Assembly (NCBI GenBank): GCA_020850355.1
Contig: JADZEX010000020.1
Span: 62,001 to 126,000 of the forward strand
DNA from: Fimbriimonadaceae bacterium
GTDB lineage: Bacteria > Armatimonadota > UBA10988
Direction of reading: 5' to 3'
Length of the DNA stretch: 64,000 nt
Made by a program: the position numbers and the translations under genes. Numbering within the stretch: the first letter of the stretch is position 1; every line of letters begins with the position of its first letter. Under the pieces are notes generated by a model. That model saw only the letters and a list, made by a program, of their open reading frames with translations, was not told the origin of the DNA and made no database searches. Below, in pieces: positions 5,886 to 54,921 of the stretch.

Positions 5886-7490
5886 ATGCCCGCCGTGCGA
5901 CGCCGTGCACACCACCTCCGAGGGCCGCTGCTGTGGCTGCTGTTCGGGCTGCCGGCCGGTTGGGCGCAGGCGCCGGCCCCGTTACCAGCCGGGCCGGGCG
6001 GCCGGGAGGCCGAGATGACGCAAGCCACCGAACCAGCAGTCACCTACGAAGCCCACGGCGCCGTGGGCGATGGCGTTGCCGACGACTTGCCGGCGATTGT
6101 CGCCGCGCACGCCTATGCCAACGAGCACCGGCTGCCGGTCAAGTCCAATCCCCAGGCCACCTACCACCTCGGCCGGCGAGCGCTGACGGCGATTCTGGCG
6201 ACCGACACCGATTGGAGCACCTCGCGCTTCACCATCGACGACACCGCCGTCGAGGACCATCGCAAGTCGCTGTTTGCGGTGCGGTCGCTGCTGCTACCCG
6301 TGAAGCTGGCGCTGGAGCGTCTGACCCGCGACCAGCGCCAGGTCGACGCCCGGCCGCCGAGCGACTGTTGGGTGCGCGTCGAGACCAGCCAGAAGCGCCT
6401 CTACATTCGGCGCGGGTTGAATCAGAACAGCGGCACGCCGCAGCGCGACTGCTTCATCCTGCGGCGTGACGGATCGATCGAGGGGGACATCGACTGGGAC
6501 TACCCGCAGATCACCAAGGTCGACGCGCGGCCGCTCGACGAGCAGACCCTGACCGTGCGCGGCGGCATCTTCACGACCACCGCCAACTGCATGAAGCAGG
6601 AGACCGGCTACAACTACTGGGCCCGCAACATCAGCATCTCCCGCTCCAACACCGTGATCGACGGGCTGCAGCACCGCATCGTTGGGGAGACTGAGGTCGG
6701 CCATCCCTACAGCGGGTTCCTGACCGTCAGTGGCTGCGCCAACGTGACCATCCAGCACTGCTTCGTCAGTGGCCACCGCACCTACAGCACGATCGGCTCG
6801 GCCGGTAAGCCCGTCAGCATGGGGACCTACGACCTGAGCGCCAACGAGGTCGTCAACTTCACGCTCCGCAGCGTCACCATGGATGACATCTGCGACGGCC
6901 GCAAGTGGGGCGTGATCGGGACCAACTTCTGCAAGAACATCCTGCTGGAAGACTGCGTGCTGTCGCGCATGGACACCCACCAGGGCGTCTCAGGGCAGTA
7001 CACCATGCGGCGCTGCACGCTCGGCTACGCCGGGCTCAACGCCATCGGCCGCGGGACCTTGTTGGTGGAGGACTCGACCCTCAATGGGCGGTCGTTGATT
7101 GGTCTGCGCGGTGACTACGGCAGTACCTGGGAAGGGTCGGTGGTGATCCGCAACTGCCGTTGGGTCCCCGGCTGCGGTGCCAAGGTGGTGCCCTATCTGA
7201 TCGCCGGCAACAACGACGGCGCGCACGACTTCGGGTACCCCTGCTTCATGCCCCGCGAGGTCCGCATCGACGGCCTGCAGATCGACGACCGCCAGCACCC
7301 TGATGGGTACGGCGGGCCCTACCTTTTCACCGACCCGGATGGCAACGGCGACGCCACGACGGGGCGCTTCCCGTACCGCTTCACCGAGCAGGTCACCCTG
7401 CGCAATGTCACCGTGGCCAGTGGCCTGGCGCTGCAGCTTTCGCCGGACGCGCGGCTGAACGCCGCGGTGAAGGTCAGCCGGACCGACTGA
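5886..7490 (+). CDS. Exported right-handed beta-helix (pectate-lyase-fold) protein
   Basis: 534 residues from ATG 5886 (CAGGAG upstream). The signal peptide has a twin-arginine-like start (RRRAHH) and ends near AQA (about residue 28). The segment YEAHGAVGDGVADDLPAI matches the pectate lyase superfamily / GH28-like opening in which GDGxxDDxxAI begins the helix. The rest has Asn/Cys/Val-rich coils typical of parallel beta-helix enzymes (NVTIQHCFVS, NILLEDCVL, TLLVEDSTL). The family acts extracellularly on acidic polysaccharides as lyase, hydrolase or epimerase. Which one applies here cannot be told from sequence. It is followed 71 bases later by the tandem beta-sandwich gene. Confidence 0.75.
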   Translation: MPAVRRRAHHLRGPLLWLLFGLPAGWAQAPAPLPAGPGGREAEMTQATEPAVTYEAHGAVGDGVADDLPAIVAAHAYANEHRLPVKSNPQATYHLGRRALTAILATDTDWSTSRFTIDDTAVEDHRKSLFAVRSLLLPVKLALERLTRDQRQVDARPPSDCWVRVETSQKRLYIRRGLNQNSGTPQRDCFILRRDGSIEGDIDWDYPQITKVDARPLDEQTLTVRGGIFTTTANCMKQETGYNYWARNISISRSNTVIDGLQHRIVGETEVGHPYSGFLTVSGCANVTIQHCFVSGHRTYSTIGSAGKPVSMGTYDLSANEVVNFTLRSVTMDDICDGRKWGVIGTNFCKNILLEDCVLSRMDTHQGVSGQYTMRRCTLGYAGLNAIGRGTLLVEDSTLNGRSLIGLRGDYGSTWEGSVVIRNCRWVPGCGAKVVPYLIAGNNDGAHDFGYPCFMPREVRIDGLQIDDRQHPDGYGGPYLFTDPDGNGDATTGRFPYRFTEQVTLRNVTVASGLALQLSPDARLNAAVKVSRTD

Positions 7491-7561
7491 ACGGTCGCAG
7501 AAGGAGATCGGCGGGCGCTGGCGATCCGTAGGTCGACGACACGGCTGGACGGAGGACTGCG

Positions 7562-8728
7562 ATGCGCCCCTTGCTGTTGACTGTGCTGCTGGCCGCCTCG
7601 GCGGCCCTGGCCGAGCTGCCGGCGCCCTGGAAGAGCGCCGACCTGGGCTTTGTGAACACTGCCGGGACCGCCGCCGCCGACGCCGGCACCTTCACGGTCA
7701 CCGCCTCCGGCAGCGACATCTGGGATCTCGCTGACGGTGGCCACTTCGTCTACCAGCCGATCACCGGCAGCTTCATGCTGACGGCGCGGATTGTCAGCCT
7801 CGAGAACACCAACGAGTGGGCCAAAGCCGGGGTGATGTTCCGCAGCACCACCGGGCCGGGCGCGAAGCACGCCTTCATGTGCCTCACGCCCAGCCAGGGC
7901 GCCGACTTCCAGCGTCGTGAGATGGTCGACAGCGAGAGCCTCAACTTCGGTCCGCAGCCGGCACCGCTGCCCTACTGGGTGCGCCTGGTGCGCCTCGGCG
8001 ACGCCTTCAGCGGCTTCAGCTCGGCCGACGGCCAGAACTGGACCGCCCATGGCACGGTCGGCGTGCTCTTGACGCAGCAGTGCCTGGCCGGCCTGGCGGT
8101 TAGCGCGCACAACAACGACGCGGTCACCAAGGCCGTGATCGACAATGTCAAGTTCGAGCCGATCCGCGGGGTCAGCGAGCCCTGGAAGGCCCAGGACATC
8201 GGCGCCGTTGGCATCACCGGCTCGACCATCGACATTGGTGGGACCCTCCAGATCACCGCCTCGGGCGATGACATTTGGAACAGCGCCGACGCCTTCCACT
8301 ATGTCTACCAGCCCTGGAGCGGCGACGGGCAGATCACCGCGCGAGTGGTCAGCTTGAGCGCCAGCAACGAGTGGGCGAAGTGCGGGGTGATGTTCCGCGA
8401 GAAGCTCGAGGCGGGCGCGCGCCATGCCTATCTGCCGCTAACCGCCAACTGGGGACCCAACTTCCAGCGCCGGCCAGAGCCCGATGCCGAGAGCTTCAAC
8501 ACAGGCGTCGACGACGCCGCGCGGGCACCCTACTGGGTGCGGCTGGTGCGCGCCGGCAGCACCTTCACCGCCTACACCTCGACCGACGGCAAGACCTGGC
8601 ACCAGGCGGCCAGCGAGACGATCGCGATGGGCGCCGACATCTACGTCGGCGTCGCCGTGACCAGCCACGACAACGGCGTCACGACCGACGCGGTGGTCGA
8701 CCATCTGAAGGTTGAAAAGCCGAACTAG
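7562..8728 (+). CDS. Exported protein with two tandem concanavalin-like (DUF1349-type) domains
   Basis: 388 residues. A short signal peptide (MRPLLLTVLLAASAALA) is followed by two copies of a domain of about 185 residues. Each copy starts with PW-K-A/S-D-G and includes S-GSDIW/SGDDIW, a FHYVYQP/HFVYQP segment, NEWAK-GVMFR, a DFQRR/NFQRR segment and PYWVRLVR. This is the concanavalin-A-like DUF1349 fold that binds or cleaves sugars in other proteins. The duplication lies within one gene and the copies have diverged, so it is old. The ATG is preceded by CGGAGGAC. It probably binds carbohydrate at the cell surface. Confidence 0.75.
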   Translation: MRPLLLTVLLAASAALAELPAPWKSADLGFVNTAGTAAADAGTFTVTASGSDIWDLADGGHFVYQPITGSFMLTARIVSLENTNEWAKAGVMFRSTTGPGAKHAFMCLTPSQGADFQRREMVDSESLNFGPQPAPLPYWVRLVRLGDAFSGFSSADGQNWTAHGTVGVLLTQQCLAGLAVSAHNNDAVTKAVIDNVKFEPIRGVSEPWKAQDIGAVGITGSTIDIGGTLQITASGDDIWNSADAFHYVYQPWSGDGQITARVVSLSASNEWAKCGVMFREKLEAGARHAYLPLTANWGPNFQRRPEPDAESFNTGVDDAARAPYWVRLVRAGSTFTAYTSTDGKTWHQAASETIAMGADIYVGVAVTSHDNGVTTDAVVDHLKVEKPN

Positions 8729-8743
8729 GCAACGAGGCGGCCG

Positions 8744-9631
8744 ATGAGCTGGGAGCATCCTCGCGCCCTGGCGCAAGCCTTGGCGGGCGCCGAGTATCTG
8801 GCGACCGACGCCGTGGCCACCGCGGCCTGGTTGCAGCAGCGTCTGGCGAAGCCCCTGCTGGTGGAGGGTCCGCCCGGGGTCGGCAAGACCGAACTGGCGA
8901 AGTGCCTGGCCCAGGTCGCCGACCGTCCGCTGCTGCGGCTGCAGTGCTACGAGGGCATCGACGAGGCGCGAGCGCTCTACGAGTGGGACTACGGCAAGCA
9001 GCTCCTGGCGGCGACGCTGCTGCGCGATGTCGTGGCCGGCCAGGTCGCCGGGGCGGCGACGCTGCGCGAGGCCGTCGAGCGCCTGGCGCGCGAAGAGTCA
9101 GCTTTCTTCAGTCGCGCCTTCCTGCTGCCGCGGCCGTTGCTGCAGGCGCTCCTGAGCCCGCAGCCGGTGGTCCTGCTGATCGACGAGATCGACCGCGCCG
9201 ACGAAGCCTTCGAGGCCTTCCTGCTGGAGCTGCTGAGCGACTTCCAGGTCAGCCTGCCCGAACTCGGCACCGTCACGGCAGTGCATCAGCCGTGGGTCAT
9301 CCTGACCAGCAATGGCACCCGCGCGCTGGCCGATGCCCTGCGGCGGCGCTGTCTCTACCTCTGGATCGACTACCCCGACGCCGCGACCGAGCTGGCGATT
9401 GTGCAGCGCAAGGTGCCGGGGCTGGCCGACCAGCTCGCCGCCGAAGCGGTGGCCTTCGTGCAACGCCTGCGGCGACGCAGCCTGCGCAAGCCGCCGAGCC
9501 TGGGGGAGACCCTCGACTGGGCCTATGCCCTGGTCGTCCTGAACGCCGACCGCATCGACGATGCAGTGCTGGACGACACACTCGGCGTGCTGCTGAAGGA
9601 CCACGAAGACCTGCGTGAGGGCAAGCGCTGA
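8744..9631 (+). CDS. MoxR-family AAA+ ATPase
   Basis: 295 residues, cytoplasmic. Walker A is GPPGVGKT at residues 42-49. Walker B is VVLLIDEID, followed by the family's RADEAFEAFLLE. Sensor-1 is ILTSNGTR and an arginine finger is visible (LRRRCL). MoxR ATPases usually act as chaperones that insert metals or cofactors into partner proteins and are normally encoded next to a VWA (CoxE-like) protein. No such partner follows here. The next gene, the sulfatase, is convergent and begins 9 bases past the stop. The nearest VWA protein is the exported one at 3311, which is not a usual MoxR partner. Confidence 0.85.
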   Translation: MSWEHPRALAQALAGAEYLATDAVATAAWLQQRLAKPLLVEGPPGVGKTELAKCLAQVADRPLLRLQCYEGIDEARALYEWDYGKQLLAATLLRDVVAGQVAGAATLREAVERLAREESAFFSRAFLLPRPLLQALLSPQPVVLLIDEIDRADEAFEAFLLELLSDFQVSLPELGTVTAVHQPWVILTSNGTRALADALRRRCLYLWIDYPDAATELAIVQRKVPGLADQLAAEAVAFVQRLRRRSLRKPPSLGETLDWAYALVVLNADRIDDAVLDDTLGVLLKDHEDLREGKR

Positions 9632-32503: not shown

Positions 32504-32588
32504 TTGTGTACGGCTCTCGGAGGTGACCGCGCGATCACCGGCCGCCTTCGGTTTGAGTGCCATGGACGACCCGGGGAGGCAACAGGCC

Positions 32589-33443
32589 ATGCTGGAGTTC
32601 GATCTTTTGACTCGCAACCTGGCGGCCAGAGGCAATCCGTGGGTGGCCGAGGTACCGGTTGCCCCGATCGCAGCGGCCGACCGGCCGGGCTACTCGCTTG
32701 GATATGTGCCCAGTCCTGGCGAGTACAGCCTGGAGCAACGCGAGGATCTCGCGCGCAGCTTGGGTCTGGTGACGGCGAGCCTGGCCCAGGTGACACCGCA
32801 CTACCCGCCGCAGGTCGACCACCGCGCCCTGAACGGCGCCAACTATGTGACCGCGATCCGCGATCAGGGCCAGTGTGGCGCGTGCGTTGCCTTTGGGATT
32901 GTGGCTGCGCTTGAGAGCAACCGGGTGCGGTCGGGCCAGGCGACCCGGGGGGGCGACTACTCGGAGGCCGATCTGTTCTTCTGCGGTGCCGCGGTGGACG
33001 GGTTCACCTGTGACAGCGGCTGGAATCCAATGGATGGACTCAACATCCTGCGCAACCGTGGGGTCGCCGCCGAGGCGGACTTCGGCTACCAGGACCAGCA
33101 ACTGGCCTGCCCCCTGCCGAGCGACCACCCGAGGACGCAGATCAGCAACTGGCAGCGACTGTATGCGCCAGCGCAGATCAAGCACCACCTCTGCACCAAG
33201 GGCCCGCTGATCGCCTGTTACAGTGTGTTCGAGGACTTCTTCCACTACAAGTCTGGCATCTACTGCCATGTGCTGGGCGAGCGGGTCGGCGGCCATTGTG
33301 TCTGTTGCGTCGGCTACGATGATCGCGACCGGTACTGGATCTGCAAGAACAGTTGGGGCGACCAATGGGGCGAGCAGGGGTTCTTCAGAATCTCCTATGG
33401 CGAGGCGGGTGTGGACAGCTTCATGGACGCAATCTGGGTCTAG
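32589..33443 (+). CDS. Papain-family (C1) cysteine protease
   Basis: 284 residues from ATG 32589, which has GGGGAGG nine bases upstream; earlier in-frame starts at 32523 and 32562 lack a usable site. No signal peptide, so it is probably cytoplasmic. Residues 1-75 look like a propeptide. The mature domain has the C1 motif QGQCGACVAF with oxyanion Gln93 and catalytic Cys99 (papain's Trp after the Cys is Val here), GGHCVCCVGYDD with catalytic His236, and CKNSWGDQWGEQGFFRIS with Asn254. All three catalytic residues are therefore present. A chagasin-like inhibitor is encoded next. Confidence 0.92.
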   Translation: MLEFDLLTRNLAARGNPWVAEVPVAPIAAADRPGYSLGYVPSPGEYSLEQREDLARSLGLVTASLAQVTPHYPPQVDHRALNGANYVTAIRDQGQCGACVAFGIVAALESNRVRSGQATRGGDYSEADLFFCGAAVDGFTCDSGWNPMDGLNILRNRGVAAEADFGYQDQQLACPLPSDHPRTQISNWQRLYAPAQIKHHLCTKGPLIACYSVFEDFFHYKSGIYCHVLGERVGGHCVCCVGYDDRDRYWICKNSWGDQWGEQGFFRISYGEAGVDSFMDAIWV

Positions 33444-33601
33444 GAGCGGCTCCTGGGCGGGCCGGCAGGCGACCCGCTACCAGATTGCTGCCGACCTGGC
33501 GCTGGGCGGTCACGAGTCGCGCGCCTGGCCTTGACCTGTCGGGGCCGACCGGCCCTTGCGAGGCACCTTCCCACGGTCTACACTGGCTCTGAGGACGTGA
33601 G

Positions 33602-33916
33602 ATGAACACCCTCTTGCTCTCGCCCGGCCAAGCTGCCAGCGTTGCTTTGTCGTCTGGCGATGAGGTGGCGCTGCAGGTCTCGGAGAACCCAACCACCGGC
33701 TACCGCTGGGAACTGCTGCTGCCAGACGCAGGCAGCGCCTCGCTCTCGCGGACCGAGTTCAGCGTCGGTGCGGGCGCCCTCGGTGCGGCTGGCGGACGGA
33801 CCTTCGTCGTTCGCGCCGGCCGACCCGGCACCCATACGTTGTGCCTCGCCCTGCGACGTTCGTGGCAGCCTGACGTCGTCCGCGAGCGCATCCAGGTTGA
33901 GATGGTGGTGGGCTGA
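33602..33916 (+). CDS. Chagasin-family (I42) cysteine protease inhibitor
   Basis: 104 residues from ATG 33602 (GAGGACGTGAG upstream). It carries the three inhibitory loops of the family: NPTTGY at 29-34 (the L4 loop, perfectly conserved), a Gly-rich GAAGGR at 61-66, and RRSWQP at 85-90 in place of the usual RPW motif. Length fits chagasin (about 110 residues). No signal peptide, like the protease 158 bases upstream, so inhibitor and protease probably share the cytoplasm. Chagasins block papain-type enzymes by plugging the active cleft; this one presumably restrains the neighbouring protease. Confidence 0.88.
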   Translation: MNTLLLSPGQAASVALSSGDEVALQVSENPTTGYRWELLLPDAGSASLSRTEFSVGAGALGAAGGRTFVVRAGRPGTHTLCLALRRSWQPDVVRERIQVEMVVG

Positions 33917-48766: not shown

Positions 48767-49140
48767 ACCTGGAAGAGCTCCGACGCTTGCGTGAGAAGGC
48801 GCAACGGGACATGGCGCTCCGCACCGAGCACCAGCGCTTCCGCATCAAGGTCTCGATGGGCACCAGCGGCCTGGCCAAGGGTGCTCGCGAGGTGATGGAT
48901 GCGATGGTCAACGAGATCGAGGCCCGCCAGCTCAACGACATCGAAGTCGTCGTGACGGGGTCCAGCGGCCTGGAGGAGCTGGAGCCGTTCGTGGCGGTCG
49001 AGGAGCAGGGTCAGACGCCGGTGTTGTACGGCCGGGTGGACACCCCGACGGCCAAGAAGATCATCGCCGAGCATGTCGTGGGTGGGCAGAAGGTGACCAC
49101 TCACATCGTGCAGCGGCAGCGCGCTGAGGAGGTCCAGTGA
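48763..49140 (+). CDS. HndB-like thioredoxin-fold protein without cluster cysteines
   Basis: 125 residues. Sequence pattern and position match HndB-like (2Fe-2S) ferredoxin-domain proteins: an N-terminal helix (LEELRRLREKAQRDM), then VSMGTSGLAKGAREVMDAM, IEVVVTGSSGLEELEPFVAV and TPVLYGRVDTPTAKKIIAEHVV. At the positions that hold cluster cysteines in family members there are Ser31, Ser35, Ser67 and Glu71, and the whole protein has no cysteine at all. It therefore cannot carry the expected [2Fe-2S] cluster and is probably a structural subunit. Its stop overlaps the NuoF start (TGATG). Confidence 0.88.
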   Translation: MNLEELRRLREKAQRDMALRTEHQRFRIKVSMGTSGLAKGAREVMDAMVNEIEARQLNDIEVVVTGSSGLEELEPFVAVEEQGQTPVLYGRVDTPTAKKIIAEHVVGGQKVTTHIVQRQRAEEVQ

Positions 49141-50939
49141 TGGCGGAGTTCCAGCGACTCCACTGCTTCCTGTGTACCGGCTCCGGCTGTGTCGCGGCGG
49201 GCGCATTCGACGTTCGCGACAAGCTCCGGGAAGAGCTCGAGAAGCACGGGTTGAGTGAAGAGATCGACATCATCGACACCGGGTGCGCCGGCCTCTGCGA
49301 GCGCGGCCCCCGGATGAACGTCTGGCCGGACGAGATCTACTACGCCCAGTTGCAGACCAAGGACATCCCGAAGCTGGTCGAGGAGCATTTCCTCAAGGGT
49401 CGCCCCTACGAGCCGTGCCGCATGACCGACACCGTCTCGGGCGACATCATCGCCAGCGAGATGGACTTCCAGTTCCTCAGCAAGCAGCGCCGCATCGTGC
49501 TCGAGAACTGCGGGGTCGTCAACCCGGAGCACATCGAGGAGTACATCGCCCGCGATGGCTATCTGGCCCTCGGCAAGGTGCTCTGCGAGCTGCAGCCGGC
49601 CGACGTGCTGGCCGAGATCAAGAAGTCCGGCCTGCGCGGCCGCGGCGGCGCGGGGTTCCCGACCGGCCTGAAGTGGCAACTGCTGCACGACGCACCGGGC
49701 GACACCAAGTACATCGTCTGCAACGCCGACGAGGGTGACCCGGGCGCCTTCATGGACCGCTCGGTGCTGGAGGGCGACCCCCACCGGGTGATCGAGGCGA
49801 TGGCCATCAAGGGCTACGCCACCGGCGCCAGCAAGGGCTTCATCTACTGCCGCGCCGAGTACGCGCTGGCCATCCTGCGGCTGAACATCGCGCTGAAGCA
49901 GGCCCGCAGCTACGGGCTGCTGGGCAAGAACCTGTTCGAGCGCGGCTTCGACTTCGACATCGAGATCCGCGTCGGCGCCGGGGCCTTCGTCTGCGGTGAA
50001 GAGACCGCCCTGATGCAGTCCATCGAGGGCCACCGCGGCCACCCGATGCCGCGGCCGCCGTTCCCGACCCAGAAGGGCCTGTGGGGCAAGCCGACCAGCA
50101 TCAACAATGTCGAGACATACGCCAACATCCCTTGGATTATCCGACAGGGCGGCGAGGCGTATGCCGCCATCGGCACCGAGAAGAGCAAGGGCACGAAGGT
50201 CTTCGCCCTGGCCGGCAACGTCCGCAACACCGGCCTGATCGAAGTCCCGATGGGGATCACGCTGCGCGAGATCGTCTTCGGGATCGGCGGCGGCATCGTC
50301 GAGGACCGGGCCTTCAAGGCGGCTCAGGCGGGTGGCCCCTCGGGCGGCTGCATCCCGGCCGAGCACCTCGACACGCCGCTCGACTACGAGAGCCTGACCG
50401 GCCTCGGCGCCATCCTCGGCTCCGGCGGTCTGATCATCATGGACGAGACGAGCTGCATGGTCGATGTGGCGCGCTTCTTCATGGAGTTCTGCGTCGACGA
50501 GAGCTGCGGCAAGTGCGTCCCGTGCCGCGCCGGGACCCGCCAGATCTGGCAGTTGCTGACCACCATCTGCAACGGCGAGGCCGTCATGGAGGACCTCGAC
50601 CGGCTCGAGAAGCTCTGCCTGATGATGCGTGACATGAGCCTCTGCGGCCTCGGCATGACCGCGGCCAACCCGGTGCTCTCGACGTTGCGCCACTTCCGCC
50701 ACGAGTACGAGGCGCACATCAAGGACAAGCGCTGTCCGGCGGGCGTCTGTCGCAAGCTGGTGACCTTCAGCATCGCGAAAGAGAAGTGCACCGGCTGCGG
50801 CGTGTGCTCGCGCAACTGCCCGGTCGACACCATCTTCAAGATGGACGGCGAGCGCAAGTACCACATCGTGCAGGACGCCTGCATCAAGTGCGGCTCGTGC
50901 TTCGACGTCTGCAACTTCGATGCAGTGAATAAGGAGTAG
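49140..50939 (+). CDS. nuoF: NuoF/HndC/HydB-like NADH- and FMN-binding subunit
   Basis: 599 residues from ATG 49140 (AGGAGG seven bases upstream). Order: an N-terminal thioredoxin-like [2Fe-2S] domain (CTGSGC at 12-17, then DTGCAGLC), then the flavin site GRGGAGFPTGLKW. The NADH site is VGAGAFVCGEETALMQSIEG, a SLBB domain is present, and the N3-type [4Fe-4S] motif is ESCGKCVPCRAGT. Two C-terminal [4Fe-4S] motifs follow (CTGCGVCSRNCP, CIKCGSCFDVC). This long architecture is that of the subunit proposed to bifurcate electrons between NAD(P)H and ferredoxin in [FeFe] hydrogenases (HydB, HndC), not the shorter HoxF of cyanobacteria. Confidence 0.95.
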   Translation: MAEFQRLHCFLCTGSGCVAAGAFDVRDKLREELEKHGLSEEIDIIDTGCAGLCERGPRMNVWPDEIYYAQLQTKDIPKLVEEHFLKGRPYEPCRMTDTVSGDIIASEMDFQFLSKQRRIVLENCGVVNPEHIEEYIARDGYLALGKVLCELQPADVLAEIKKSGLRGRGGAGFPTGLKWQLLHDAPGDTKYIVCNADEGDPGAFMDRSVLEGDPHRVIEAMAIKGYATGASKGFIYCRAEYALAILRLNIALKQARSYGLLGKNLFERGFDFDIEIRVGAGAFVCGEETALMQSIEGHRGHPMPRPPFPTQKGLWGKPTSINNVETYANIPWIIRQGGEAYAAIGTEKSKGTKVFALAGNVRNTGLIEVPMGITLREIVFGIGGGIVEDRAFKAAQAGGPSGGCIPAEHLDTPLDYESLTGLGAILGSGGLIIMDETSCMVDVARFFMEFCVDESCGKCVPCRAGTRQIWQLLTTICNGEAVMEDLDRLEKLCLMMRDMSLCGLGMTAANPVLSTLRHFRHEYEAHIKDKRCPAGVCRKLVTFSIAKEKCTGCGVCSRNCPVDTIFKMDGERKYHIVQDACIKCGSCFDVCNFDAVNKE

Positions 50940-50945
50940 CTCCCG

Positions 50946-52925
50946 ATGGCAGAGTTGATTACCCTCACCATCGATGGCCAGGAGTGCCGCGGCACCAAAG
51001 GGATGACCATCCTGCAGGTGGCCAAGGAGAACGGGCTCGACATCCCGACGCTCTGCAATCACCCCTGGCTGACGACCCACGGCGGCTGCCGGATGTGCGT
51101 CGTCGAGGTGGAAGGCCAGCGCCGGCTGGTCACCGCCTGCGCCGCGCCCGCCGAAGACGGGCAGATCGTCGTGGCGCACAACGATCGGCTCGAGACGCTG
51201 CGGCAGATGACCCTGGAGCTGCTCTTCGCCGAGCGCAACCACATCTGCCCGTTCTGCGCGATGACCGGGGTCTGCGAACTGCAGGACCGGGCTTACGAGC
51301 ACCACATCACGCACACGCGCTACGACTATATCTTCCCGGTGCTGACCCCCGACACCACCAACCCGTACTTCGTGCAGGACCACAACCGCTGCATCCTGTG
51401 CGGGCGCTGTGTCCGGAGCTGCTACGAGATCGCCGGCGTCGGCACGCTCGGGTTTGGGCATCGCGGCTCGCAAGAAGTCGTCATCGCCGACCTCGGCGTG
51501 CCGCTCGGGGAGAGCTCTTGCATCAAGTGCGGCACCTGCGTCGACGTCTGCCCGACCGGGGCGCTGTTCGACAAGCGGGCGCCCTACTTCTCGCGGGCCC
51601 GCGGACTCGAACGGAAGCCCAGCATCTGCCCCGACGACGACCTGGGCTGCGCCATGAACGTGGTGCTGAAGTCCGGCCTGGTCGCGCGCATCGAAGGCTG
51701 GACCGAGGCCCCGGTCAACGGCCCGTTGCTGAGCTACCGCTCGCGCTACGAGATCCTCAACGAGCCTCACCCCCGGGTCCTCAAGCCGCGGGTGCGCAAG
51801 GATGGCGAGCTGGTCGAGGTGGACTGGGCCGAGGCGCTCGACGCGACTGCGGAGTTGCTCGCCAAGACGCAGTCTGGCGCCGACGGCCACGTCGTCGGCC
51901 TCTGCTCGACGCGTTTGCCCTACGAGACTCTGGCGAGCTACCACCGGCTGCTCGCCGAGCAGTGCGGCTGTGTCGACGTGGACACCTTCCGCGGCGCTCA
52001 ACGGGCCACCCGCCGACAGGCTGACGACCTCTACGGGACGCACAAGGAGTGCGACTTCGAGGCCATTCAGCAGGCCGACATGGTGCTCCTGGTGGGCTTC
52101 GACCCCTGCACCACCCACCCGGTGCTGGGCGCCTGGCTGGCCAAGAAGGTCCACCACGACGGGGTGCCGATCGTCAGCATCAGCCCGCGCACCACGAAGA
52201 CCGCCGAGCTCAGCATCCTCAGCCTCAAGCCGCGCCGCGGCAGCGAGCTGGCGGTGCTCTACGGTCTGCTCGGGCAGCTCATCGAGCAGCGCAACCTGGG
52301 CCACCTGGTCGACCGCCTGACCGCCGAGAAGTGGCGCTCCCACCCGCCGGGCCGCGTCTCCTACGAGGCCGGGGTGGAGGAGCAGGCCGTGGTGCGCGCC
52401 GCGGCGCTCTACGCGGCCGCCAAGAACCCGGTGATCCTGTACGGGCCCGACCTCACCGAAACCGGCAACCCAACGCTGATCGGCCGGCTCTGGGAAATGG
52501 CCCAGTTGCTCGGCCACGTGGGCGCCAGCAAAGAGGTCATGGTGCGCGGCTTCACGACCGGCGCCAACTCCGCGGCGGCCGAGCAGATTGGCTTCCGCGG
52601 CGCCGATATGGAAGGCGCGGCGGTGGTCTACCTGCTAAGCGGCGACGACCCCGTCGACCTGACGCCGCAACTGCGCCAGGACCTGCGCGACGCCGGCGCG
52701 GTGATCCTGCAGTCGGCCCACGACGGGCCGCTGGTGCAATACGCCGATGTGGTGCTGCCGTCGCTGAAGTGGAGCGAACGCGGCGGCACCTGGATCAACG
52801 TGATGGGCGTCGGCCAGACCTTCGAGGCCTGCACCAAGGCCCCAGCCGGCATCAAGCCGGACGAGTGGGTCCTCACCGAAATCGGCGAGCGCTTGAGCGC
52901 CGTCAAGGAGGCTGCTCATGAGTGA
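50946..52925 (+). CDS. nuoG: NuoG/HoxU-like iron-sulfur subunit with molybdopterin-type C-terminal domain
   Basis: 659 residues (AAGGAG upstream). Residues 1-80: [2Fe-2S] ferredoxin domain (CNHPW, GGCRMC). Residues 80-125: the His-Cys [4Fe-4S] motif (HICPFCAMTGVC). Residues 130-220: two [4Fe-4S] motifs (CILCGRCVRSC, CIKCGTCVDVCP). From about 225 a molybdopterin-oxidoreductase-like domain runs to the end. Its normal C-x2-C-x3-C entry motif is reduced to CPDDDLGC, so it should not bind that cluster, and it is shorter than a catalytic formate dehydrogenase. HoxU proper ends near residue 240, so about 420 residues are extra. The gene overlaps hoxY by 8 bases. Confidence 0.92.
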   Translation: MAELITLTIDGQECRGTKGMTILQVAKENGLDIPTLCNHPWLTTHGGCRMCVVEVEGQRRLVTACAAPAEDGQIVVAHNDRLETLRQMTLELLFAERNHICPFCAMTGVCELQDRAYEHHITHTRYDYIFPVLTPDTTNPYFVQDHNRCILCGRCVRSCYEIAGVGTLGFGHRGSQEVVIADLGVPLGESSCIKCGTCVDVCPTGALFDKRAPYFSRARGLERKPSICPDDDLGCAMNVVLKSGLVARIEGWTEAPVNGPLLSYRSRYEILNEPHPRVLKPRVRKDGELVEVDWAEALDATAELLAKTQSGADGHVVGLCSTRLPYETLASYHRLLAEQCGCVDVDTFRGAQRATRRQADDLYGTHKECDFEAIQQADMVLLVGFDPCTTHPVLGAWLAKKVHHDGVPIVSISPRTTKTAELSILSLKPRRGSELAVLYGLLGQLIEQRNLGHLVDRLTAEKWRSHPPGRVSYEAGVEEQAVVRAAALYAAAKNPVILYGPDLTETGNPTLIGRLWEMAQLLGHVGASKEVMVRGFTTGANSAAAEQIGFRGADMEGAAVVYLLSGDDPVDLTPQLRQDLRDAGAVILQSAHDGPLVQYADVVLPSLKWSERGGTWINVMGVGQTFEACTKAPAGIKPDEWVLTEIGERLSAVKEAAHE

Positions 52926-53472
52926 GGCGCGCAAACCGGTGATCGCGTCGGTCTGGCTGGCCGGCTGCTCCGGGTGTCACATGTCGTTGCTCGACATCGA
53001 CGAGCGGCTGTTGACGGTCCTTGAGAAGGGCAGCATCGCCGCCACGCCGATCACCGACTTCAAACTCGGGTCTTTCCCGCAGTGCGACGTCGGCCTGGTC
53101 GAGGGCTCCGTCACCAACACCGACAACATCAAGTTCCTCGAGGAACTGCGCGCCAAGTCGACCTACCTGGTCAGCTTCGGCGACTGCGCCGGCTGGGGTT
53201 GCGTGCCCTTCATGCGCAACTTCTTCCCGCTGCAGGAGGTCCTCGAACACGGCTATATCTGGTCGTCGAGCACCGTCGACGGGCACATTCCCGATGATGA
53301 GGAGCTGCCGACGTTCCTGGACGTCGTCGAGCCGATCCGGAAGTTCGTCAAGGTCGACTTCCACATCCCCGGCTGCCCGCCCTCGGCCGACACCATCTTC
53401 TACGTTGTCAACGAGCTGCTGGAGGGCCGCATGCCGGCCGGCATCCCGCAGCCGTTGCTGCACTTCGACTGA
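52918..53472 (+). CDS. hoxY: [NiFe] hydrogenase small subunit, HoxY-like
   Basis: 184 residues, without Tat signal, so a cytoplasmic enzyme. The four ligands of the proximal [4Fe-4S] cluster are present: Cys17 and Cys20 (AGCSGCHMSLLD), Cys90 (GDCAGWG) and Cys153 (PGCPPSAD). It lacks the C-terminal medial and distal cluster domain of group 1 enzymes, as expected for group 3 (HoxY/MvhG-like). It passes electrons between the NiFe site of HoxH and the NuoG-like subunit. The start overlaps the preceding gene by 8 bases. Confidence 0.95.
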   Translation: MSEARKPVIASVWLAGCSGCHMSLLDIDERLLTVLEKGSIAATPITDFKLGSFPQCDVGLVEGSVTNTDNIKFLEELRAKSTYLVSFGDCAGWGCVPFMRNFFPLQEVLEHGYIWSSSTVDGHIPDDEELPTFLDVVEPIRKFVKVDFHIPGCPPSADTIFYVVNELLEGRMPAGIPQPLLHFD

Positions 53473-53487
53473 TTGGAGGGCGAGCTC

Positions 53488-54921
53488 ATGGCTACGAAAT
53501 ACATCGTTGAGCCGGTGACCCGCATCGAAGGCCACGCCAAGATCACGTGCGTGGTCGACGACGCCGGCAAGGTCGACCACGCGCGGTTCCATGTGGTCGA
53601 GTTCCGCGGCTTCGAGAAGTTCTGCGAGGGCCGGCACTTCAGCGAGATGCCCACCCTGACCGAGCGGATCTGCGGGATCTGCCCGGTCAGCCACCACCTC
53701 GCCAGCGCCAAGGCCATCGACCGCCTGGCCGGCGTCCAGCCGACCCGCACCGCCGCGCTGCTGCGCGAGCTGATGCACATGGGGCAGGTGGCGCAGTCGC
53801 ACGCGCTGAGCTTCTTCCACCTCTCGTCGCCCGACCTGCTGCTGGGGCCCGACAGCGACCCGGCGCTGCGCAACGTGGTGGGCATCGTGCAGGCCTTCCC
53901 CGAGGTCGGTCTGCGCGCCGTCAAGATGCGCAAGTGGGGTCAGGAGGTGATCGCCGCCATCGGCGGACGCAAGATCCACCCGAACTGCGCCGTCCCGGGC
54001 GGCATGGCCGCGGGGATCTCGAAGGATGTCGGGCGCGACTTGCTGGCCGAGGCCGAGACGCATCTCGCCACCGCGATGATCGGGCTCGACCTGCTGCTCG
54101 GTTGGGTCAAGAAGAACCCGGAGGTGGTCGCCCGCTTCGCCGTCTTCTCGAGCTACTACGGCGGGTTGGTCAACCCCGCGGGCGGGCTGGAGCTGTATGA
54201 CGGCAACTTCCGGATCAGCGACCCGCAGGGCCAGCCGGTGGTCGACCAGTTCGACACCCAGAAGTACCTCGACATCATCGGCGAGCGGGTCGAGAGCTGG
54301 ACGACGCTGAAGTTCCCGTACTACAAGCCGGCCGGGTACCCCGACGGGGCCTACCGCGTCGGACCGCTCGGGCGCCTCAACAACATCTCGCACATCCCGA
54401 CGCCGCGGGCGCAGGAGCAGTTCGAGAAGTACAAGGCCGCCGGCAACGAACACGGCGTCGTGGAAGGCACTCTGTTCTACCACTACGCCCGCCTGATCGA
54501 GGCCATCTACGCCATCGAGCGGGCGCAGCAGATCCTGGCCGACGACGAGGTCTACGGCCCCGATCTGATGGCCCCGACCACCGGTCAGCTCAACCCGCGC
54601 GGCGTCGGCGTGATCGAAGCCCCGCGCGGCACGCTCTGGCATGACTACACCATCGACGAGAACGGCGCGTTGACCAACGTCAACCTGATCGTCAGCACCG
54701 GGCAGAACAACCCGGCGATGTGCAAGTCGGTCGAGCTGGTGGCTCAGGAGTTCGTCGACGGCTCCAACGTCACCGAGGGCATGCTGAACCGCCTCGAGAT
54801 GGCCATCCGCGCCCACGACCCGTGCCTCAGTTGTTCGACCCACGCCATCGGCCAGATGCCCTTGCTGGTCGAACTGGTGGATCGCCACGGCACGCTGTTG
54901 CAGCGGATCGAACGCCACTAG
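53488..54921 (+). CDS. hoxH: [NiFe] hydrogenase large subunit, HoxH-like
   Basis: 477 residues from ATG 53488 (GGAGGG seven bases upstream); a start 15 bases earlier lacks a site. It holds the NiFe(CN)2CO centre. L1 motif RICGICPVSHH with Cys62 and Cys65, L2 motif DPCLSCSTH with Cys446 and Cys449, plus EPVTRIEGHAKI at the N-terminus. The L1 form RICGICPVSHH is typical of group 3 enzymes. Processing after His452 would remove a 25-residue tail beginning AIGQMPLL. The protease for this is encoded at 55037. Catalyses reversible H2 oxidation. Confidence 0.96.
   Translation: MATKYIVEPVTRIEGHAKITCVVDDAGKVDHARFHVVEFRGFEKFCEGRHFSEMPTLTERICGICPVSHHLASAKAIDRLAGVQPTRTAALLRELMHMGQVAQSHALSFFHLSSPDLLLGPDSDPALRNVVGIVQAFPEVGLRAVKMRKWGQEVIAAIGGRKIHPNCAVPGGMAAGISKDVGRDLLAEAETHLATAMIGLDLLLGWVKKNPEVVARFAVFSSYYGGLVNPAGGLELYDGNFRISDPQGQPVVDQFDTQKYLDIIGERVESWTTLKFPYYKPAGYPDGAYRVGPLGRLNNISHIPTPRAQEQFEKYKAAGNEHGVVEGTLFYHYARLIEAIYAIERAQQILADDEVYGPDLMAPTTGQLNPRGVGVIEAPRGTLWHDYTIDENGALTNVNLIVSTGQNNPAMCKSVELVAQEFVDGSNVTEGMLNRLEMAIRAHDPCLSCSTHAIGQMPLLVELVDRHGTLLQRIERH

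Follow-up and report, generated by a model that had tools for sequence, protein, structure and literature searches.

A leaderless papain-like protease encoded beside a leaderless chagasin-type inhibitor in a Fimbriimonadaceae bacterium and in other bacteria and archaea

Introduction

The closest described systems are the staphopain-staphostatin (C47) and SpeB-Spi (C10) operons, each of which encodes a papain-fold protease together with a dedicated inhibitor, believed to protect the cytoplasm (PMC3462683). Chagasin-type (I42) inhibitors are known from T. cruzi (chagasin) and P. syringae (Cip1), neither of which was described in an operon with its target enzyme in the literature searched; the family is marked by the loop motifs NPTTG in L2, GXGG in L4 and RPW/F in L6 (PMC2607524). 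Pseudomonas chagasins bear signal peptides (PMC5014320), and an earlier paper did not decide whether bacterial chagasins regulate the proteases of their own cell or those of a host (PMC2784779). Pairs of protease and inhibitor that act inside the cell are described as uncommon; one reported example is the intracellular subtilisin Isp1 of B. subtilis with its Ig-like inhibitor IPI, whose homologues do not lie beside a subtilisin gene in the complete genomes examined (PMC3901451).

The pair described here lies in a window (the whole stretch analysed, 64,000 nucleotides) of a Fimbriimonadaceae genome. It shares adjacent same-strand genes with the staphopain-type operon, and the inhibitor fold and NPTTG loop with chagasin and Cip1, and like IPI and Isp1 it would combine an intracellular protease with an Ig-like inhibitor, although the families of both proteins differ. 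What sets it apart is that both partners are leaderless and that the inhibitor belongs to I42, whereas the operons already known combine an exported protease with a cytoplasmic inhibitor that is not chagasin-like (PMC3462683). Our literature search, outside which most subscription journals lay, found no description of a leaderless C1A and I42 pair. Such a conserved pair makes the own-or-host target of bacterial chagasins directly testable.

The protease and the inhibitor

The features of the protease gene were as follows.

32573..32579, + strand: Shine-Dalgarno-like GGGGAGG 5' of the protease ATG, read in the sequence by consensus only
32589..33443, + strand: leaderless C1A papain-like cysteine protease, open reading frame of 284 aa (ATG at 32589, stop at 33443)
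32589..32804, + strand: N-terminal segment of the protease (roughly residues 1-72) preceding the catalytic domain, a probable short pro-region
32865-32867, 32883-32885, 33294-33296 and 33348-33350, + strand: protease catalytic residues Gln93, Cys99, His236 and Asn254, respectively

The Pfam comparison gave a match to Peptidase_C1 (PF00112) at 5.5e-40 and 138 bits, against a curated cut-off of 20.7. All four catalytic residues, which the original prediction had described as intact, were invariant in the family alignments of relatives. The AlphaFold2 model (pLDDT 89.6, pTM 0.90) had procathepsins as its top structural matches in Foldseek, with Xylellain (3OIS), a bacterial C1 protease, ranking lower. 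By residues, profile and modelled fold, the protein is a member of peptidase family C1A (papain) with predicted activity. Its N-terminal segment contains a W-x-AG-x-T pattern that is kept in most leaderless relatives in the alignment, and the model predicts helices there at residues 4-14, 29-34 and 48-57. The Foldseek alignments extended over about 290-330 columns with zymogens versus about 225-230 with several mature cathepsins. Residues 1-72 or so are thus a probable short pro-region, which may be inhibitory.

The features of the inhibitor gene and of the gap before it were as follows.

33444..33601, + strand: intergenic gap of 158 nt between the protease and inhibitor genes
33591..33594, + strand: GAGG, a possible ribosome-binding site of the inhibitor gene, read in the sequence
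33602..33916, + strand: leaderless chagasin-type (I42) inhibitor, open reading frame of 104 aa (ATG at 33602, stop at 33916)
33686..33703, + strand: inhibitory loop L2, Asn29-Pro-Thr-Thr-Gly-Tyr34, aligned to the NPTTGF loop of chagasin

Inhibitor_I42 (PF09394) matched this product at 2.9e-15 and 56.7 bits (curated Pfam cut-off 27.2), and phmmer aligned it with the solved inhibitor of cysteine peptidase 2wgn_B at 1.8e-8 and with chagasin at 1.2e-5. The AlphaFold2 model had a pLDDT of 92.5 and, in Foldseek, TM scores of 0.75-0.85 to EhICP2 and chagasin. The NPTTGY loop had been called intact and was indeed read whole in the sequence (N29-PTTG-Y34), while the two other loops are near matches: the L4 site reads L60-GAAGG for GXGG, and the L6 site reads RRSW88 where chagasin has RPW, the Trp being kept and the Pro replaced. 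The protein belongs to the I42 (chagasin) family by its profile, its modelled Ig-like fold and the NPTTG of L2, and is predicted to inhibit C1 enzymes. It is the sole I42 protein of the 6.67-Mb assembly.

Signal peptides were judged by hydropathy and not with SignalP. No hydrophobic segment was found in the protease frame back to the upstream stop, and the best 11-residue hydropathy mean was 0.93 versus roughly 1.6-4.0 in exported-type relatives. No signal peptide was found on the inhibitor, whose ATG is preceded by only about three codons within a 107-aa open frame. This search for a missed signal peptide upheld the earlier statement that neither protein carries one, and the relatives collected here agree with the statement that bacterial C1 proteases are mostly exported, 51 of them having a hydrophobic N-terminal segment and 22 being leaderless. 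The second C1 gene of the assembly (L003, G000:C12:12796-13398), in a 512-aa open frame, has a hydrophobic segment.

The inhibitor gene lies 158 nt 3' of the protease gene on the same strand, and the likeliest reading, which we hold at about even odds, is that the two form one module, in which the cognate inhibitor keeps a cytoplasmic protease inactive until some trigger arrives. A C1A protease devoid of an export signal would be made in the cytoplasm, where the inhibitor would plug its active-site cleft with three loops and the short pro-region may serve as a second lock. If the inhibitor were then lost, cleaved or diluted during stress or infection, the protease would be set free, and a cysteine enzyme is well matched to the reducing conditions of the cytoplasm. 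That the inhibitor blocks the protease encoded next to it is very probable. The gap counts against a single module, and co-transcription is only putative; no terminator-like or sigma-70-like match was found in the 158 nt, although the sigma-70 consensus does not necessarily hold for this organism. The label of a toxin-antitoxin-like module is only an analogy, as the inhibitor gene is the downstream one, no DNA-binding domain was shown in its product, and release from the cell by a non-Sec route is conceivable. A perfect 9-nt inverted repeat (33429-33437 and 33480-33488 of the window) spans the protease stop codon and may be due to chance.

Conservation of the pairing

When genome contigs were scanned with the protease as the sole query, nine relatives were found, in Zixibacteria, Alpha- and Gammaproteobacteria and archaea (Methanothrix). 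An I42 gene was located downstream on the same strand in seven of these (L036, L037, L038, L040, L041, L042 and L044), the inhibitor of L042 being divergent and under the Pfam cut-off. One of the other two, L039, whose N-terminus is hydrophobic, runs off the end of its contig, and the other, L043, is split across two frames with no adjacent I42. Few relatives came from phages and plasmids when these were searched; strong ones on Deinococcus and Streptomyces plasmids have an I42 near the C1 gene, as does a distant relative (27% identity) on a Priestia plasmid. The Methanothrix-phylum and Croceicoccus-order (Sphingomonadales) searches added new pairs with I42 (L142/L174, L144/L175 and L170-L173) and two relatives with no adjacent I42 (L143/L176 and L161/L177). 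The conserved adjacency of C1 and I42 that was to be looked for was therefore found across Zixibacteria, Proteobacteria, archaea and plasmids. Adjacency by chance was rejected, since the pairing recurs in the protease-only search and in the added loci.

Comparison of the relatives at E up to 1e-40 showed that an I42 gene lies downstream in 17 of 22 leaderless enzymes versus 0 of 38 with a hydrophobic N-terminal segment, another 13 of the latter 51 not being testable for I42. The five leaderless relatives with no adjacent I42 (L043, L109, L110, L176 and L177) show that the protease can exist without the inhibitor. Fisher's test gave a p of 6.8e-11 for all relatives and 3.3e-5 without the seeds, values that are not independent evidence because the tree holds a single independent pair. 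In the protease tree, a split with weak support (54/58) had all leaderless enzymes on the same side, and the nearest neighbours of the window protease were L175 (archaeal phylum), Deinococcus, Zixibacteria and Streptomyces. Since the leaderless enzymes separate only once, we rejected the reading of the contrast as many independent events; it points to a single association that has persisted through divergence and transfer. When I42 was searched genome-wide in the window's phylum and in the Zixibacteria sample, L036 alone in the latter had an I42 close to its C1 gene, and the two other adjacent pairs of the former (L064 and L091) were weaker relatives whose proteases have hydrophobic N-termini, so that exported pairs exist too. 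As an observation apart, the IMG/VR contigs L109 (4965-5720) and L110 (1505-2290) carry a leaderless C1 gene of the same group beside long genes of opposite orientation; no I42 was found in the fetched stretch.

The distances between the proteases and those between the inhibitors were correlated (Mantel r 0.76, p 5e-5, 14 pairs). Together with the adjacency across bacteria and archaea, this correlated divergence supports the original prediction of a matched protease-inhibitor pair. It is very improbable that the two genes are unrelated neighbours, with an inhibitor aimed at the proteases of other organisms and standing beside C1 by chance. Secreted bacterial I42 proteins do inhibit host enzymes, Cip1 being an example (PMC5014320), but the present inhibitor is leaderless, the genome's sole I42 adjoins C1, its adjacency is kept across phyla and the divergence of the two proteins is correlated.

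Gene neighbourhoods and proposed roles

PADLOC identified IetA and IetS, of the IetAS anti-phage system, directly after the pair in five loci (L038, L040, L042, L044 and the IMG/VR contig L107), that is, in several Proteobacteria and one contig of a viral collection; the C1 and I42 proteins themselves had no PADLOC match. L042 also has a caspase gene and a trypsin-like gene nearby, and on the Deinococcus plasmid the pair is followed by two caspase genes, one with an alpha/beta-hydrolase-like region. Conflict systems are marked by, among other things, caspases paired with alpha/beta hydrolases (PMC7159879). In the stretches examined, no IetAS or caspase-type neighbour was found for the window, L170-L173, the methanogen-phylum pairs or the Priestia pair. 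In L036 (Zixibacteria), a DUF6345 gene (7147-8868) lies between C1 and I42; its product, which had no PADLOC match, contains HSGHG...STC, by eye like a caspase-type His/Cys pair.

The neighbouring IetAS and caspase genes are suggestive of a role in conflict or defence, and the protease could be a self-damaging or antiviral effector, although we hold this a little below an even chance. The wider proposal is speculative and rather unlikely as a whole: leaderless C1A with chagasin would be an effector-inhibitor cassette that is widespread among the proteolytic conflict systems of bacteria and archaea, in which a sensor such as IetAS or a caspase would remove the inhibitor on infection and unleash the protease inside the cell. 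A 2023 account gave the mechanism of IetAS as unknown (PMC9958689), and the position of the pair before ietAS is a concrete lead on it.

Repeated C-terminal domains were found in the Croceicoccus-order C1 proteins (L170:6859-8712, L171:7422-9092, L172:6846-8891 and L173:8649-10658), as DUF346 tails in the first two and as repeats with no Pfam assignment in the last two. DUF4114 was found in Methanothrix-phylum relatives (L041:5995-7221 and L176:6625-8628, the latter with three copies and no adjacent I42), and about 780 residues with no assignment precede the C1 domain of the Streptomyces plasmid protein (L054:6769-9840). DUF346 and DUF4114 are domain types common in extracellular proteins. Because some relatives carry these tails, the chief alternative is that of an effector that is released and an immunity protein that is not, in which the protease would leave by lysis or a non-Sec machine and act outside while the inhibitor protects the producer and its kin. 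We regard this as unlikely, although not negligible. The inhibitor starts only a few bases past the protease stop in L172 and L173, and precedents exist in SpeB-Spi, staphopain-staphostatin and Bacteroides C10, where a protective inhibitor adjoins its protease (PMC3462683), and in Tox-PL1/Imm35 (PMC3482391). However, neither a secretion system nor a trafficking domain was recognised beside the loci examined, the enzyme of the window lacks additional domains, and the versions linked to IetAS are accompanied by defence proteins that are presumably cytoplasmic. The idea of a regulated intracellular switch is plausible, since it is the leaderless group that carries the inhibitor and since the pair lies beside cytoplasmic defence proteases in some lineages.

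Spread and setting of the window pair

The window pair stands alone among metabolic genes, after a GFO/IDH/MocA oxidoreductase gene and before a convergent GH129-like gene (Pfam); no defence gene adjoins it, and ietA and ietS were absent among the neighbours examined. The L174, L175 and Sphingomonadales-order pairs are likewise alone, with housekeeping-looking neighbours. These settings would suit ordinary cytoplasmic proteolysis by a minor turnover peptidase, with the inhibitor as a safety device, but we judge this quite improbable in view of the linkage to IetAS or caspases elsewhere, the plasmid copies and the patchy spread. The four genomes sampled from the window's family or order gave no match to this C1, and among 349 genomes of the Bradyrhizobium-phylum sample it was present in the seed only.

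The GC3 of the two genes is 0.82 and 0.79, and that of four window neighbours is 0.90-0.92. The lower GC3, the patchy spread and the plasmid copies fit, without proving, horizontal transfer of the window pair. Elsewhere in the window, at 49137-54918, consecutive open reading frames resemble by eye the subunits of an NAD-reducing [NiFe] hydrogenase.
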